Source: Cliona cf. orientalis (lineage: Eukaryota; Porifera; Demospongiae; Clionaida; Clionaidae). From it: a stretch of DNA of 64,000 nucleotides. Below the pieces are notes generated by a model. It saw nothing but the letters and a program-made list of their open reading frames with translations, was not told the origin of the DNA and searched no databases. Each line of letters starts with the position of its first letter. The stretch's first letter is position 1. The position numbers were made by a program, and so were the translations under genes. The DNA lies in NCBI GenBank assembly GCA_963930775.1, contig OZ005698.1, positions 4,842,501 through 4,906,500 of the forward strand, in the 5' to 3' direction. Shown here in pieces: positions 38,870 to 64,000 of the stretch.

Positions 38870-39410
38870 TGTAATGGTGCATGTGGTAAAAGGTCGTCAA
38901 TAGAATGCGTACACATCGATCGATGCTCGCCCACAAATCATGGAGATGGCGTCTAAGATCGACTCTCAACCTAGTCTCGCAAGTGTGTGGCTTGCGAGAC
39001 TACTCTCAACCTTGGTAGCGACAAGTTTCGATGCTTCAATCAGAGACGAACTCGACAGCACAGTATTCCTTCCGAACTTCAGATTGGTCACGCTGCTGCA
39101 GTCGCGCGCGGGCCAGCCCCTTGTGACAATGATGCGTGCTATATTATAGCACAAGGCTAGCTTTATTTATCCACGGCATTACGTAAGCCAAGAAAACACG
39201 TGAAGTTCAACCAACACTGAGTAGTTCTCAGAGAAAGTAGCGCTCAGCTTGTAATGTATTCGCTGGATACACGCGTAAGATACTCTCTACATATTTACTG
39301 ATTTTCAAGTCCCAGAAAGGCTCCAGCGAGGCCCTGGATTATTTCATAATTACCTCATAGGTTGCATCATAAATTCATCATGGGTTACATCACAATTACC
39401 TCATAACCAC
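38870..39410. repeat. MITE family H, copy 5 (inverted orientation)
   Basis: Inverse of 9277-9735 and 11527-12023 (GGTAAAAGGTCGTCAATAGAA, CCGAACTTCAGATTGGTC, TTTATCCACGGCATTACGTAA). It is interrupted by the 31 bp element at 38972-39002 and is fused to a truncated family J copy at about 39411-39562. Confidence 0.75.
38972..39002. mobile_element. 31 bp minimal TAGTCTCG-family hairpin with perfect 9 bp target duplication
   Basis: TAGTCTCGCAAG, a 7 base loop, then CTTGCGAGACTA. It is flanked by perfect 9 bp repeats CTCTCAACC at 38963-38971 and 39003-39011. The uninterrupted site is visible in the family H relatives, which read through GACTCTCAACCTTGGTAGCG-like sequence without it. It contains only the extreme ends of the transposon. 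Confidence 0.85.
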
Positions 39411-39721: not shown

Positions 39722-40244
39722 TAGTCTCGTGACCCAGCCCCCTAAACGCACGCGAAAAGGGGTCTGGTACAACGAGTTGTCGCAGTGGAATGCAATACCG
39801 GTAATTGCGTACCTGCGGTTTCGCGTTTTAAATTCGAAAACTAGTCTACTTTTTGCTAGCCAAAACGACCTAGCTATCGTTTCTACGATAGTTTCGTTGC
39901 CTCTATCACTCACCTTTTCGAAGTAAATCTTCAGAGTTCGAGCGGTCTCTCGTTTGAATTTGAAACTACAGTTAGCTTTTTGCGTCCATAACTGTTCTAT
40001 TTTTGCTTGCCATCAGTCCTTCGGATCGTTTTGTCGTCTTTGCCGCACACACTTCTCGAGTAGATCAGTAGATCTTCGGTGCTGGTCAAGCACGAGCTCA
40101 AAGTGAAAAAGATGCATGTTTATAATACGCGAATATATGTTTATAGCGATCTGATTGGTCGCGCCACATTCTTGAGCTTTGGACAACTCGTTGTTACCAG
40201 ACCCCTTTTTCGCATGCGTTTAAGGGGGCTGGGCCACGAGACTA
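39722..40244. mobile_element. Non-autonomous TAGTCTCG-family transposon, 523 bp
   Basis: Inverted ends of about 60 bp, left TAGTCTCGTGACCCAGCCCC, right the inverse TAGTCTCGTGGCCCAGCCCC, each continuing through GGGGTCTGGTA and CAACGAGTTGTC. Flanks GTGATCGAT (39713-39721) / GTGATTGAT (40245-40253) are a 9 bp duplication with one change. The interior is unlike 25773-26437. No coding capacity. Confidence 0.9.
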
Positions 40245-47200: not shown

Positions 47201-50200
47201 AAATTTTAGACATGCCATACCCATCTACGTGTATGTAATCAGTTTAACATTCCATGAAAGTTTTCTCCATGAAATGCTCTCTTCCTACCGATTTGCGAAA
47301 ATTTTCTCCCTCAAAAGTTTCCCACTGTACGGTATACATGTACCTCCGCTTGCTTAATGGAATGTAGGAGAGACACTTAATTCAATACCAAAAGTAATAT
47401 TGTATGGCGGGTAATTTTCTGGGGTGCTAATTTTTGTAGAAAGTCATAGAAGGCCCTAATTTTCATGGTTGTATAACTGCACAAACGATGACGTAATACA
47501 TGGGCGTGATCTCGCTCGCAATTTTCCTTGTCATGAAGCCGCATCTGCAGAGACTTGGACAAATAGCATGAGATACCATATACCCTGGTTAATAAGTGTA
47601 TGCGATTATAGTGGTAAACGGAACAATAGATATGGCACATAACCACACCCACAAACGTTTGGGCACGAGATGGATGTGAGGCCTGCTAGCACTAGCGCTA
47701 GCTGGCTCGATCGATCGAGCACTTTAGCGTTTACAGCTGCCGCTCAAGATGGCGAGTGCTGGTGATTTGTCTGAAACTCGATCTTCTTGCATGACATTAT
47801 TCGTGGCCATCATTTCTCCAAAGACATCTGGGCTCCATGTACTTTCCAGCCGGTCATGGTCAGGTTCATAGAACGCCATGCCTATTAAGCGCATGCACTT
47901 AGTAAACAATAGCTTGTGATGAGAAGAGAGCATGCGCTTAATAAATAATGTGCGCTTAATAACCAGAGTTTACGGTAGAAGAATATTAGTGTTGAGGACG
48001 CCAGTAGCCGGATGATAGTGGCTACTGTTGTTCGCTAACACTGCGAACCGTTGGCTGTACTGCCATGATGTTTTTGGCCACGCCTATCATCTATTCACTC
48101 GCTGCATGTCTCATATCACCGCAGGCATTAAATTTTGGGGTGGAAACTTTCAAAATTAGCATCCCACAAACTAAATGAGTTATCCACTTATATTTAGCTA
48201 TTTTTTTTCCACAGTGCCATTTTAAGAGTACGACAGTACCAATTAATTTTATATAATAATATTGTAATTTACCCATGCAGTGTTGGTCATGAAACAAAGA
48301 TCTCTCTCTATCAGCTGATATTTTCTGATAAGATTCCTTCCAGTCATCAACCAGCCAGTCTTTATCACAATCTTCAGAGTTGTGTTCTGCGGTTGGAGTA
48401 TCCATTGACATCTACCCCTTCAACTCCAAATGCTCGTTCCTCTGTTGGCTCGTGCCTGCTCAACTGTTTCACTGTTCAGCTCTATCATCAAGTCAGGGGA
48501 TTGGAAGAGAGCAGTGAGGGACCAAGTAAGTGTGGTGGCATATAGTTCGTTGGGTTCAGGGGTTTCGCTTGGGGAGGGGGACACAAGGTGTCCAGTCTGG
48601 CTGCTGTTGCAACACAAGCATGAATGAATGTAAAGGGGGTTAACATTTATGCCATTGTCAGATCATACATGTAAGTAGTTTATAATTTATTAACATACAG
48701 TAGGAGGCATAAACGGTGATGTTTCCGTCCCATCCCGTTCCATTTAAACAGAAATGCGTGCCCATTCCATTCAACAGAAAAGCGGGAATAGACCAGGAGG
48801 CTGAGCAAGCGACAAATGGTGCGACAAACTACGCAAACCGTAGCTAGCTCGAACTACACACCAGAAGAGTCCAAGAAAGCTGGAAGGAGTATTATTTCAG
48901 TCAATCTGCTAGTTGTAGGGGTAATTTGAGTTGATCAGTGATCCAAGGTCGATTGTTTGACGATGGCGAAAATCGCTCGCAGTTGAGTGGTGATTGCAAA
49001 ACACGCTCAAGTCAGAAGAGCAGCAGCAGCAGCACAGAGTCTCATTGAAGTTAGAAGACAGTGGCAGTGTAAAGGCATCAATTCTAGTCCACAAGCAAAT
49101 GAGCTACTAGTCTCGAACCCAGACTCCGCCCTTTTCCGCAGCGCTGGATGTATTGCATCACCAGCACGCGGAAGGAAGGGTCTGGCGACTCTTGCACGGT
49201 TTTCGTGTTCTCTGGAGGAATTTGCAAAGGGCCAATAGGGTGCGAGATGTCACATGATGCGTTCGTATTATGAACCGCAAGCGCGTTAAGTATGCAATCA
49301 TTTGCGCGTGTGGAGATGGAGGAGCTTGTGAACAAAGCGGCTTTAGAAATGGGGTATTCTTCGATCCGCGACAAGCAGAAAGAAGCTATACTGGGGTTCT
49401 TGAGTGGCAGAGACGTATTCGTATCGCTCCCTACGGGAAGTGGGAAAAGTTTGTGCTACTCCATTCTGCCTAAAGTGTTCGATCGAGTGAGGAAGACGTC
49501 TGGGAGTATCGTCATCGTTGTGAGCCCTCTTGTTTCATTGATGAAGGACCAAGTACATTCCTTGGAAACGAAGGGAATAAAGTCGGTGTTTGTGACGAAA
49601 GATACGGCGAAGGACTCAGAATCTGACGATAGCTCTTTTGAACAGCAACTGTACGAAGGCAGTTTCCAGGTCGTGTTTTTCAGCCCAGAGGCTCTGCTGT
49701 GTAACGATACCTGGAGGGAATTATTACAAACTTCAGTCTACCAGAAGAATGTAGTAGCCTTTGTTATCGATGAGGCCCACCTAGTCAAGAAGTGGTGAGT
49801 TACATCAAATATCTTAGCCAAGAGATTCTTTTATCAATGTTAAATGTTTGTTGATTCTCAGGGGGGAATCCTTTCGACGTGAGTTTGCCAATTTAGGTGA
49901 GGTATCAAGTCTGCTTCCTGACGTCCACATCATGTCTTTGACTGCCACTGCTTCGAGGAACACCAGACAAAGTATCTGTAGGCTAATCGGCATAAAGAAA
50001 GTTTTACTTGTCTCACAGTCTCCTAACAAACCAAATATATACTACTCCTTGAATTCGAAACAGAAAGATCTTGAAGAAGCCTTTGACCCCCTAATCCAAG
50101 ACATTAAAGAAAAGCAAACCAGTATGAACAGGACTATCATATTTTGCAGATCTTATACCAGTTGTACCAGCATCTACTTTTACTTCAAAAGTTCCCTAGG

Positions 50201-53200
50201 AAAAGCAATATCAGAGCCTGAAGGGTACCCAAACCATGCGGAATTGCGGATAGTGGACATGTTTACAGCCTGTACCCATCCTACTGTAAAGAATACGATT
50301 TTGAGGCAGTTTCAGCAACCAGATAGCTCGTTGCGTGTGATCGTAGCCACTGTTGCATTTGGGATGGGACTCGATTGCCCCAATGTTCGTCACATCATCC
50401 ACTGGGGGTCCCCTAACGATGTTGAGACTTACATGCAGGAGACTGGTAGGGCTGGTAGAGACGGCTTACCCTCTACAGCTGAACTTTTCAGTGCAGTCAA
50501 GGAATCATCTACACGGCACATAGACTACAGAATGAAAGACTACTGCAAGTTAAAAGAAGAGGACTGTAGAAGAAAATTTCTTTTGCAGGAGTTTGATTTG
50601 TGCTCAGATTCTTCTGAAGTCACTGCAATTACTGCATGTAAATGCTGTGACCTTTGTTCAGTACATTGTACCTGTAAGTCATGCAAATAAATAATTGTTT
50701 TCAGTATAATAATTATTATTGTTCTGTGCATAATCAAGAGAAATACATGACGTTGTGTAACATAACAGGACGTACAAGTGTGTGCATGAGATATAAGCAG
50801 AGCAAATTAAATTTTGTGCATGACATGGTGTGAAAAGGAATATAAACAATACATGGGATAGTTTCAAATGTACACAGTTTTATACTTGTGTACTTGCTCT
50901 TTCATCCACTTGGAAAGAGTTGAAACAGGAAGTTTTCTTGTCATGTTCGGTTGAATCTTCTTGAATTTGGAGTGTTTTCTCCCTCTAATGTGGCCATACA
51001 CATTGTCATCCTGTAGTTGTGCAAGCAGCTTCTCCATATCTAATTGCACAGTACGCCTTGGGTGATGTCCGGAGTCAGTACAAACTTTATTTACAGAATC
51101 AAAGTTCTGAGTCACTTTCATCACTTCACCAATGCTTCGTCCAATCCGACCAACAGCTTTCTCACCAATGTTGGAGCCGAGAGATCCCATCGCCTGTTTG
51201 CACTCTTTGTTTATGTGCTCCATGTGCAAATCCATAGACACATTTCTGCCCTGTTTACCGTGAACATTGACTGTACGTTCCCACATCATTTGCTGTTTCA
51301 TTCTCGGTGTCAACGCATACTCGTACTCGAATAATAGGTTGAACGCTTCAACAGAATAATTAGTGCGATCAGAACATTTGAAGAGAGGAAGAAAATATCT
51401 CCAGCACCTAAATATTCTTTTACCACACGATTCACGCACACTGTCCCCAAATTCCATCAGGAGAAGCCCTAAGCTCAGCACTTCCCTAGCGTAAGCTCGT
51501 ACATGATCGTCATCTTTGTTGGCAGCTGTTGGGTAATTTACATCAACAAATTCATCAACAACTTTCCTTACAGCCAATTTCATAGTACTCCATCGTTGTT
51601 TTGGGTTTAGCTCAGTGCATCCCCGTGGAAAGAGAGATTCCGTAGGCGTATCATTGACAGACGACATTTCGAATACCTTCATTACAGCTGCACAAATGTG
51701 GGCTTCAACGACCAGTAAGAAAAACTCTTCACAAGCGGATACATTCTTCTCGGGTTTCTTTACGACACTTCTCCGGTTGATCAAATTTCGTAGGTGGTAT
51801 AACGTGGATGTATCCTTTTGTGATGCACAATTGTAGAGCCGCTTCCAGATCACCTATTATGATATTAAAAGTATATGTATTTTCATTGAATGTGTAATAC
51901 TCTAGAATTGTATATTTGCTCCACCCGCTAGTTTGTGCAAGGTTTTCCACAAGATAGTTAAACGCCCAGGTACAGTGTAGTTAAATAAACGGGGATTTAT
52001 GGCGAAACACCACTGGCATAGCTACACCTGGGCCATATCCTTTTATGAGTGTACTGCTAACCACTCATGCCGCTACTGGAGACTTTCTCGATGGCCTGTG
52101 ATGTGCTCCATTTAGATTTAGATGCTGCACATGCAGTGTACACTAATTAGGAGTACAGAAAGACATAGTACAATGTCATGCATGTGAGGTCAAGGTACAG
52201 CATTAAAATAGTGCAGTATTAGAGAGTGGGTTAATAAACTATCTTTGGGGGACATGCCCCCAGAATCCCCACCCCTCCCCCCCACCCCCAACTAATACCC
52301 TGTACCTGACCAAAGTAATGCTCCCAGCCAAGCCACTGTACAGTGCCCATGAGTGCTCACCCAGGACACTACGATAGCATAATGGTGTTTCAATAGTGGC
52401 TACATGCATCCATATAATATACGTACATGTAACGTGTAGTACACATGTGTAGTATACACACTGAGACTTACCCCAATGAAACACATTTTTGCGTGCCAAT
52501 CCTCCACTACTGGCTTGAAACCTTCTAGGCGGTCCTTCCCCCGGAGGGAATTGCTTCGGGTGTACTGACTCCCCCTTGCACGCTTTGCCGTCAGGAGATC
52601 ACCACCGAACAAAATGTGGTGAAATTTGTCAGAATGAATTTCCTTTTCACCAACACCTGGAATTGAGATCTTGCTCGTTTCTGATTCCACGGGGACGTAT
52701 TGCTGAAAATGTTCCATGATCTCAATCATGTCCTCATGAGTTGTTTCTGACTTTGGTAATATTCCTAGGGGTACCTACAACAAAATAACCCTGTAAATTG
52801 ACAGTGAAACAATTCAATATTTACACTTACTATTTCTGATTTTTTGGCCATCTCCCGATAGAACTCATGCTTGATGTGCTTCGGAACGCCTGTCCTGAAC
52901 TTTGAAAAAAATGGAAAATGTTTCTTCACAACTCTGGACACCAGAATGACAAAGTTACTCATGAGTGATTCATGATCTTCTGCTGTGGGGAGGATTTTAG
53001 CTTCCGAGAACGCCGAAAAGTCGGGAAGGGAGGGGTTGTCTTCCAGGCCTAAAGTCGATACACGATCCTTCACCGCATAGCAGTTGAAATAGTGAAGTGA
53101 CTGTGCCTGGTGGTCGAGCCTCATTTCACGAGGTGTTACATGCTTGTCAAGGTTGTCCCCAACAAGTTTATATGTATCAAGCATTGAGCAACTCTGTTGT

Positions 53201-56200
53201 GAACTCGGTACCACCTCGTGACCATTGGTGTCGGTAGACGATGACTGAGTGATTGAAGAGAAAGATCCAGCATCAGCAGTACTCTGACTTCCACTTGCGG
53301 TTGACGTGGAACTTAAACTCGAGCTCTGGGATGACTGCGAAGAACCATCTTCAGGTGGCTCTGTATAGCATAAATTACCATGAAAACATACAGGCAAGCA
53401 CCTACTTTATGGTATTAAAGTGCCCATGATTTTTATGAGGGAATGTACAGGGTGTTATACTAGTTTCTACAAAAATATTTGCAATTATATTCAGGATAAG
53501 CTTTATATGGGCCATAAGTTATGATTAAGCGCCCACTGGCACTTACCCAGGACACTATGGTATACAATAATACTGTTAATACTAACCAGCAAGGGTAGCA
53601 CTTTCTCCCCCAGTAATATCACCACTTAGATGTAGTGTTTGATCTTGACTATCACTTGGATTAGACATTTCCTGAGTTAAAATATAGATAAATATAAAAC
53701 AGCTGAACTACAATAATAATATGTATTAAGATCATGTTGTTGGTTTATGTACAATGTCATGTACTTACAGTGTGATTCCATAGTGAGTTGTGTAATTTAT
53801 CTCTCCACTGGCACACCACAGCATCGTGATCTTTTCCCAGCAAATCAACGGTGGAAATTGTTGACTCATGGGAGAGACAAACAAGCAACTTCTGTAGTCT
53901 TTTGAATATCTAACGTCATAGTTGCACAAAATTTAACTATCAACATCAAATTTAAGTAATACCATTTTTCATACCTGCTTTGGTGCATGACCACTATAGA
54001 GTAGCGTGGATATGATCCTTTGCACAAGGTTCATGTGCGTGTTTCTGTGGCGCAAGAGGATTGCTGCACACATACCAATGACTGTAGCATCATCAGCTGC
54101 ATAGAAGTACCCCGCTTTGAAACCTTTCTCCTCTTTCTATGTACACACTCCTTTAGCAACTGGTAAAATACTGGTGAAAATCGTTCCAATTCATCCATCA
54201 AATCTCCCCATGAAAACGATTTCATTGCAGTAGGTGTCCGTTTCCTCAATACAGATGACACTTTAACACTACACATCCGTTCCATATCTTTCCTGATCAG
54301 TCTCCCAACTCTTTTGAGGATGAAAGGCCGTATTCGAGGATGACTCATGACTTGCTTTGCAATCGGGCCACACTTTCGCCTGCCAACACTCCTTCCCACC
54401 TTCTTCATTGAATGTGTGAGGTAATGAACACTGTGCTTTGAACCAGGACGGCGCTTCACAACTACCTGTTAATAGACCACAGTATGAACCTAATCAACAC
54501 TACATACAGTCACTTACTGCAACAGCAGGAGAGCGTTCGACAACAGACTCTACAAGTACCTGACGAACCGGCGTAGATGGTTGCTCACGCTTCTTCCTCT
54601 TTCTTGCTGGTGATTCCACATCTTTAGGAGCTTCTCGTTTTCTGCTTGGAGTTCTATCCGGTGGGGGTTCATCTATAATTTCATAAACTTTAATCATGAT
54701 ACTTATTCAGTAGTACACTAGATTGAAGCTATACCTGATTGTGCCATGGCTACGTTGAGACTCGCAGCCGTGTTTTTCAGCTTCTTCTTAACATCTTCTG
54801 TCAGGAACCTCAAGTTAGCCTTCAATTTGGAGACCTTTTCCAGCTGGGAGTGACATGGGAGGCACAAAAACGGTCCATCAGCCCCTCTGTCTTTCGTGGG
54901 CACTGCGCTTCCAAGTCCTGCCTCCGAGCTAACTTCAACCAACGCTTGCAGCGAAAAGCTAGAAGAGGTACCATGAAGTCTTCTCCGCTTTGTCGAATCT
55001 TTGGGCAGTTCACAGTAACACAAGGAACAGCGCTTCATAGCTGCAGTTGCGTGAAGTACGCGTGTGGACTCATTCCAGTGTTTAATAATTGCATTCCAAC
55101 CTCGTGACTGTAGGTTTAATGGCATTCCACGCGAACACGAAAACCGTGCAAGAGTCGCCAGACCCTTCCTTCCGCGTGCTGGTGATGCAATACATCCAGC
55201 GCTGCGGAAAAGGGCGGGGTCTGGGTTCGAGACTAATGAGCTACGTGTACCGTAGCTCTGGTTTTTGACACGCTCAACGTATTAATTGATCACTTGCATG
55301 TGCAAAACAGGAATTGAACAGTGAATGGCACGGAACATATTCCATTTAAACGGAACGGAAACGTAACCATTTTTGTGCCTCCTACTGTACCGTGTATATT
55401 GTGTGTATTCAACCATGGATACTTGTGTGCAGCAGCTTCTGTTTCCTGGTCTCTTGCTCCAAGTGATATTGTATTTATTCAAATAGAAGCCACACCCTGA
55501 GCCGCCCTCGAATAGTAGCCACATTTGGAGTTCTGCGAAAGAGATAGTAGCCGCACACATGCGCGAACACAGTTAAGTGGGCAGGGCCACAATCGCAAGC
55601 CATGAACCATTGTTAGTTCGAGGCAAAAACATGGCCAAAAACGCCCTTCACTTGATTCTGCTGTTTATTTATTGATAATCTACATGTATTTCGAATATTC
55701 GAAAATCAGTCCTGAAAATCAAGTCTATTGTATCAATATCACCAAGTGATGTCGCTCTAAATTAATAAGAGCCGCCCTCAATTAGTAGCCGCACTCCAAC
55801 AAGGCTTAAATTAATAGCAGCCACGGCTAGTATTTGAATAAATACGGTAATTATATCTTTTACGAGTTTATGTTAGAAATAGATGAACAATCAGATAATA
55901 TTTGTTGTAATTATGATCCAATTACAATTATAGACCATCGCCTTGACCAGACGATTTCTGTGTTTGTGTGGAGTTCTGATGGAGAATGCTTTTTGGGATT
56001 GTTTGACATTAATCAGTGGTATCAAGCGCAAATGCCTAATGTAATTCACTGGAAAAGATCTGGAAAATATACTGGGTAAGCATGCATGTATTATAGTATT
56101 ACATGTATTTACCGTAGGGCAATTTAGAGTATGATTACCATAATTGTACGTGAAAATTTTCACTGGACAATAATTTCACCAAGCCCAGCTATTTGAAAAA

Positions 56201-62882: not shown

Positions 62883-63590
62883 ATGGAGAAAGACAAGGCT
62901 GCGATTGAGAGAGCTGTCATTTCAGCAAGTGCTGCACTAGGCTATGACAATGTCAATAAGCCCAACATCATTTATAGTGTGCATACTTTTGAATCCATGG
63001 AAGGTACCTTCAATCAAATGATACAAACACTGAAAAAGGAACGAACAAAAATGCCGAGAACTATACTTTATTGTCAACATCAAGACAACTGTGCGCAGCT
63101 CTACTTGCAAATGAAATTGATGCTTGGAGAAGAACATGTTGAGCCTTTAGGGGCACCAGATTTACCAGAGTTTCGTTTATTTGATTTACAAGTGCAGTAC
63201 ACGAGTCTGTGAAGGAGAGTGTACTAAAATGCCTGGTTCGCCAGTACGAATTGTAATAGCCACGATAGCTTTTGGGTTGGGTATTGACACTAGCGATATC
63301 AGATACGTTGTTCACTGGGGTCCACCGCAGGACATAGAACAGTATGTCCAGGCTACTGGATGGGCAGGTAGAGATGGAAGAACATCACATGTAATACTAC
63401 TGTATGGAAAGGGATTGAAGCGTCACGTAGAGCAAACCATGCTGGACTACTATGAGAATACTACTGATTATCGACGACAAACATTGTTTCGTGATTTCGA
63501 TGTAATCCCAACATTAATGGTTGTTTGTGTTGTGATGTCTGTAGTATGAATTGTAATTGTGGTGACTGTGATGAACAATTTTTTTAATGT
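62883..63590 (+). pseudogene. RecQ-like helicase pseudogene with helicase core deletion
   Basis: The first 22 residues (MEKDKAAIERAVISASAALG) match the start of an intact relative. The sequence then jumps directly to KPNIIYSVHTFESMEGTF, which in the intact copy follows motif III, so Walker A and the DEAH box are gone. Frame breaks occur near 63190, 63250 and 63515. Motif VI reads QATGWAGRDG, with Trp replacing the first arginine. The final cysteine cluster CLCCDVCSMNCNCGDC is still readable in another frame. It cannot make an active helicase. Confidence 0.85.
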
Positions 63591-63607
63591 GTGATGTAAA
63601 CATGTAT

Positions 63608-64000
63608 TTACAATAGTCCAGCTAACAATTTTGTCCATTGTATTTTCATCCATGTGCTTACCACATCCTTATTTAGCGATAAAAGATTGTTCTGAAATGT
63701 ACTGAACGAGCTGTGTTTACGTCCACGCAAGTTACGGAAGACTTTAGCACCATGCACCTTATTTACTATACGAGTCATGTCTTTGTCAGCTGTAGGAATC
63801 TTGTGATCTGTGGTTTGAGATGGTAGCATGTCGAAGTTGTCTAATATATCTCTTCAAGTGGAGCAATGCACTTTCCTAATCGGGTGATGGCCTTGGGTGT
63901 TTTGTTAGCTTGGATGGCATCTTTCAGAAGTCTGTTCAAATGTTCCATGAACAGGTCACAGCTAATATTTTTACCAGGTTCACCGTATGTATTTATGAAC
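63608..64000 (-). pseudogene. DUF6589-type proposed transposase remnant (C-terminal part)
   Basis: The minus strand reads YGEPGKNISCDLFMEHLNRL, a frame break near 63850, then DKDMTRIVNKVHGAKVFRN and LRGRKHSSF. These align with GKQGRNVSMDLHMEHINKEC and HIRGRKHSKF of 50864-51853. It continues beyond the window. Its stop codon lies about 20 bp from the helicase pseudogene's end, the same convergent layout. Confidence 0.8.

Follow-up and report, generated by a model that had tools for sequence, protein, structure and literature searches.

A sponge transposon pairs a RecQ helicase with DUF6589, a very likely DDE transposase, and is probably of the AcademH type

Which protein moves a DNA transposon that carries its own RecQ helicase, and to which known kind of element does such a transposon belong? 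We addressed this for an element of 6128 bp at positions 49108-55235 of a 64,000-nucleotide stretch of the genome of the sponge Cliona cf. orientalis (assembly GCA_963930775.1, contig OZ005698.1, positions 4,842,501 to 4,906,500), the whole of which we refer to as the window. With a probability of about 0.88, we consider the element to be an AcademH-type transposon of the Academ superfamily, in which the DUF6589 protein is the RNase H-fold DDE transposase and cuts with a stagger of 9 or 10 bp. The helicase-carrying type of element is already known, and what is new is the evidence for DUF6589 as the cutting enzyme.

When re-reading both ends, we found the 103 bp inverted repeats reported in a preliminary description of this DNA, at 49108-49210 and 55133-55235 with a single mismatch at position 18, as well as the reported 9 bp target duplication, with ATGAGCTAC present at 49099-49107 and 55236-55244 (9/9 bases match). 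Reading frames and Pfam matches likewise confirmed that the interior is filled by two convergent spliced genes, the RecQ helicase on the + strand and DUF6589 on the - strand. The 17-nt end motif occurs exactly twice in the window, both times at the element's own ends, and four times when up to three mismatches are allowed (0.07 expected). The features are as follows.

49099..49107, no strand: left target-site duplication ATGAGCTAC, 9 bp
49108..49210, + strand: left terminal inverted repeat, 103 bp, starting TAGTCTCG
49292..49794, + strand: helicase exon 1, DEAD domain; start codon inferred
49862..50690, + strand: helicase exon 2, Helicase_C and C-terminal cysteine cluster, including the stop; zinc-binding domain recognised by Pfam in relatives only
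50864..51853, - strand: DUF6589 exon 8 (profile positions 156-410; conserved NYxxEA), including the stop; 5' boundary approximate
52466..52774, - strand: DUF6589 exon 7 (GGDLLT here, GDQLT mostly elsewhere; EDWH)
52816..53361, - strand: DUF6589 exon 6 (LVGDNLDK, first conserved Asp); approximate boundaries
53588..53669, - strand: possible DUF6589 exon 5, weakly supported; from sequence, boundaries by eye
53769..53909, - strand: DUF6589 exon 4; from sequence, splice sites by eye
53975..54465, - strand: DUF6589 exon 3; splice sites by eye; near 54.1 kb the frame departs from that of copy L009
54518..54672, - strand: DUF6589 exon 2; from sequence, splice sites by eye
54736..55038, - strand: DUF6589 exon 1, with a CxxC...CxxC at the N terminus that by eye resembles a zinc finger
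55133..55235, - strand: right terminal inverted repeat, 103 bp
55236..55244, no strand: right target-site duplication ATGAGCTAC

The helicase gene (49292-50690) encodes 443 amino acids in an open frame with one intron of 67 bp (49795-49861, GT...AG). Its protein matches the DEAD (E-value 1.9e-18) and Helicase_C (E-value 3.2e-15) families of Pfam, and its closest relative of solved structure is E. coli RecQ (E-value 4.8e-57). We observe no winged-helix or HRDC family in the Pfam scan up to an E-value of 1, and the C-terminal cysteine cluster matches in position the RecQ zinc-binding domain of relatives (PF16124, over the cut-off in loci L050 and L051 and slightly under it in L049).

On the opposite strand, DUF6589 (PF20231) was recognised in two open frames (E-values 2.3e-29 and 2.1e-10), which form the last two exons of a multi-exon gene whose upstream exon borders were set by eye. 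Across the 35 members of alignment A2, the Pfam scan finds DUF6589 in 32, and any other family in at most one member; the CxxC...CxxC region of exon 1 has no Pfam family above cut-off. Near 54.1 kb, within exon 3, the reading frame of the window copy shifts relative to that of the sister copy L009; the window copy may therefore be non-autonomous, or the assembly may contain an error in this exon.

Copies of the element have moved. The end sequence has at least 41 matches in the genome, and locus L009 is a second full-length copy, 96.8% identical outside gaps, at a different site and with its own 9 bp duplication TTGCTGTCT; the exact 32-base end pattern is confined to these two copies. Among 20 loci fetched by end sequence, 12 had two ends, with a duplication of 9 bp in eight, of 10 bp in three and without an exact one in L012, so that among the 13 two-ended copies including that of the window nine have 9 bp, three have 10 bp and one has none. 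An ungapped script returned no end pair at the other eight loci; for seven of them, all except L022, blastn shows matches to both ends. Short copies with both ends read (n = 11) measure 647-930 bp. Most short copies retain roughly 170 bp from one end and 150 bp from the other, and in at least four (L010, L011, L013 and L020) a profile matches the start of the helicase. The flanks of the short copy L013 look by eye like another repeat with TAGCCTCG ends, apparently its insertion target. No full-length copy was found to lack a gene, which the preliminary description had named as a point that could tell against it; L009, the one other full-length copy read, has both. Of 23 further DUF6589 loci, 11 combine TAGYCTCG ends with an exact duplication of 9 bp, one has 8 bp, two have inverted repeats away from such ends and nine have none; with shuffled sequences the yield was 0 of 23.

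The two genes are neighbours far more often than expected by chance. In the assembly (217 Mb, 149 contigs), at least 102 places match the DUF6589 profile in its later part. Matches to helicase exon 2 number at least 136, and cellular RecQ genes may account for some of them. A helicase lies within 3 kb of DUF6589 in 73 of the 102 places (chance expectation 0.4), and the two are convergent in all 73. We fetched 20 of the remaining 29 places, and tblastn with the N exon of the helicase shows a convergent helicase in 19; at the exception, L043, helicase matches are present in the profile search. That search, which does not cover orientation, finds a helicase in every one of the 34 rows that contain DUF6589 exon 8, which represent 32 distinct places. 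Thus, the convergent neighbours that the preliminary description proposed to look for do recur, and TAGTCTCG-type ends with 9-bp duplications recur as well. Furthermore, between-element distances for the helicase correlate with those for DUF6589 (r = 0.94 and 0.91, with both helicase exons used and L002, L004 and L008 omitted as duplicates), and this agreement suggests that the genes have travelled together.

Additional helicase loci were observed alongside these. Part of a second helicase/DUF6589 pair occupies 63226-64000 and runs past the right edge of the window. Loci L029-L048 make up another group of DUF6589 elements, whose helicases are more diverged; 10 of the 20 loci have TAGCCTCG ends, and in two members an upstream frame shows weak coiled-coil matches that stay under the Pfam cut-offs. 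At locus L082 (G000:C4:3098600-3103000), a RecQ-like open frame covers at least 897 amino acids and includes a long C-terminal extension. Matches of this type on contigs C4, C6 and C10 share an open-frame length of 1329 amino acids, score almost equally and lack a counted DUF6589 within 5 kb; they are perhaps another RecQ-bearing repeat.

We next consider the nature of the DUF6589 protein. The structure predicted by AlphaFold2 for a relative is similar to Hermes, RAG1 and Transib, at 5-11% identity, in a list that re-examines Foldseek's own ranking, such that the absence of other families from it is uninformative. A first model, from alignment A2, had a mean predicted local distance difference test score of 62.8 in the catalytic part and was not used, and a sequence search of the same alignment against the sequences of the Protein Data Bank gave no match up to an E-value of 1. 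The resemblance of the modelled relative to these enzymes makes it very likely that DUF6589 is a DDE transposase. Acidic residues are conserved, and the catalytic triad would comprise the Asp of GDN, the Asp of GDQLT and the Glu of NYxxEA. The earlier guess that DUF6589 is the transposase thus holds as very likely, given the predicted fold together with the repeated ends and duplications. The likeness to hAT Hermes, RAG1 and Transib is one of predicted fold only. Target duplications in this group are 8 and 5 bp long, with 8 bp for hAT, and we know of no helicase partner in any of the three; membership in hAT was rejected, as the duplications here are 9 or 10 bp.

The type of the element was assigned by comparison with published descriptions. 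The nuclease of AcademX is of the XPG kind, and XPG_I has just 4 matches in this genome. According to PMC10045372, AcademX and AcademH share one superfamily, with duplications of 3 or 4 bp in AcademX and 9 or 10 bp in AcademH, a difference tied there to nuclease versus helicase. The element has a helicase, of the RecQ type, and duplications of 9 or 10 bp in 12 of 13 two-ended copies, in common with AcademH as described and in contrast to AcademX, which we rejected on duplication length, helicase partner and the rarity of XPG_I. Other sources list a RecQ helicase in Academ (PMC3627910, citing Kapitonov et al.) and count Academ among the DDD/E superfamilies (PMC9587614), and the title of the AcademH paper (Kojima 2020, Mob DNA 11:15; cited in PMC10045372 and PMC10799480) contains the words 'found in animals and fungi'. 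We therefore file the element as a new AcademH family, placed by helicase and duplication length as described for that type. The structure and the transposase guess of the preliminary description stand, and its view that the pairing has no named superfamily does not, given the RecQ helicase of Academ and the helicase and duplications of AcademH; the already classified superfamily was reached through these two properties rather than through a library match.

The alternative that fares best, although we regard it as improbable, is a separate superfamily with another transposase that converged with AcademH on helicase and duplication length. The assignment to AcademH rests on descriptions rather than on a comparison of DUF6589 with the Academ transposase, the term DUF6589 is absent from the literature searched, and the ends of the DUF6589 elements in this genome fall into two types, TAGTCTCG and TAGCCTCG; no link between DUF6589 and Academ was found in that literature, which did not include the AcademH paper itself. 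Against this stands the agreement of the RecQ helicase and the 9 or 10 bp duplications with what PMC3627910 and PMC10045372 state for Academ and AcademH. We consider it very unlikely that DUF6589 is merely accessory and that the transposase comes from another, unseen gene or from an element acting in trans. The exon 3 frame change of the window copy and the movement of short copies without either complete gene would fit such a role, but the element is filled by its two genes, a relative of DUF6589 models as a Hermes/RAG-like protein, and comparison of the window copy with L009 shows conservation of the DUF6589 exons. A KolobokH-type element, with a Kolobok transposase and a RecQ helicase, is least probable of all and is refuted by duplication length, since Kolobok duplications are TTAA-specific and 4 bp long and those here are 9 or 10 bp and non-TTAA; PMC9587614 does give KolobokH a RecQ helicase next to its DDD/E transposase, and one rhodophyte Kolobok a RecQ helicase on the complementary strand, but reports KolobokH from fungi only.

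Why would a transposon of this kind keep a helicase? Between the window copy and L009, the ratio of nonsynonymous to synonymous differences per site (pN/pS; uncorrected counts from this one copy pair) is 0.24 for the helicase (34 differences) and 0.20, 0.06, 0.25 and 0.15 for DUF6589 exons 8, 7, 6 and 1 (21, 6, 17 and 6 differences, respectively), the exons to which the DUF6589 calculation was confined. These values suggest purifying selection on both genes and that both proteins have been needed. In the mechanism that we propose, the DUF6589 transposase would bind the long inverted ends, excise the element and join it to the target with a stagger of 9 or 10 bp, presumably by cut-and-paste, and fill-in of the stagger would give the target duplication. 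The helicase would most likely unwind DNA, either at the ends of the element or while the excision gap is being repaired. DUF6589, a domain of unknown function, thereby gains a probable function. The family is a large one within a single genome, and in it a transposon-borne RecQ is inherited together with the transposase and apparently kept by selection; its size and retained pairing make the reason for carrying a helicase a testable question.

End-only inserts of related elements bear on the role of the helicase. Facing pairs of exact TAGTCTCGCAAG ends occur in the genome 14 times at 31-54 bp, 16 times at 57-82 bp and six times at 88-110 bp, and the reversed control gave 0. The 30 shortest inserts (31-82 bp) are all different; an exact duplication of 9 bp flanks 18 of them and is absent from the other 12. 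They look like, and possibly are, scars left by the independent repair of excised or broken related elements, an alternative origin being simple internal deletion. One could go further and propose that the helicase-carrying Academ lineage uses DUF6589 as its transposase, built on an RNase H core of the Hermes/RAG kind plus a helical insertion, that RecQ acts in repairing the excision gap and that the many end-only remnants, all different and with intact 9-bp duplications, are the products of this repair; we put this combination forward tentatively, as a doubtful extension. No end-only remnants of the 49108-55235 element's own ends were found in the genome, which weighs against tying the remnants to that element. 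One of the 30 shortest inserts lies within the window, where 31 bp at 38972-39002 consist of just two TAGTCTCGCAAG-type ends, with a perfect 9-bp duplication, CTCTCAACC, around them. Additionally, a likely non-autonomous relative occupies 39722-40244, with 523 bp enclosed by a pair of TAGTCTCGTG ends and flanked by GTGATCGAT and GTGATTGAT.
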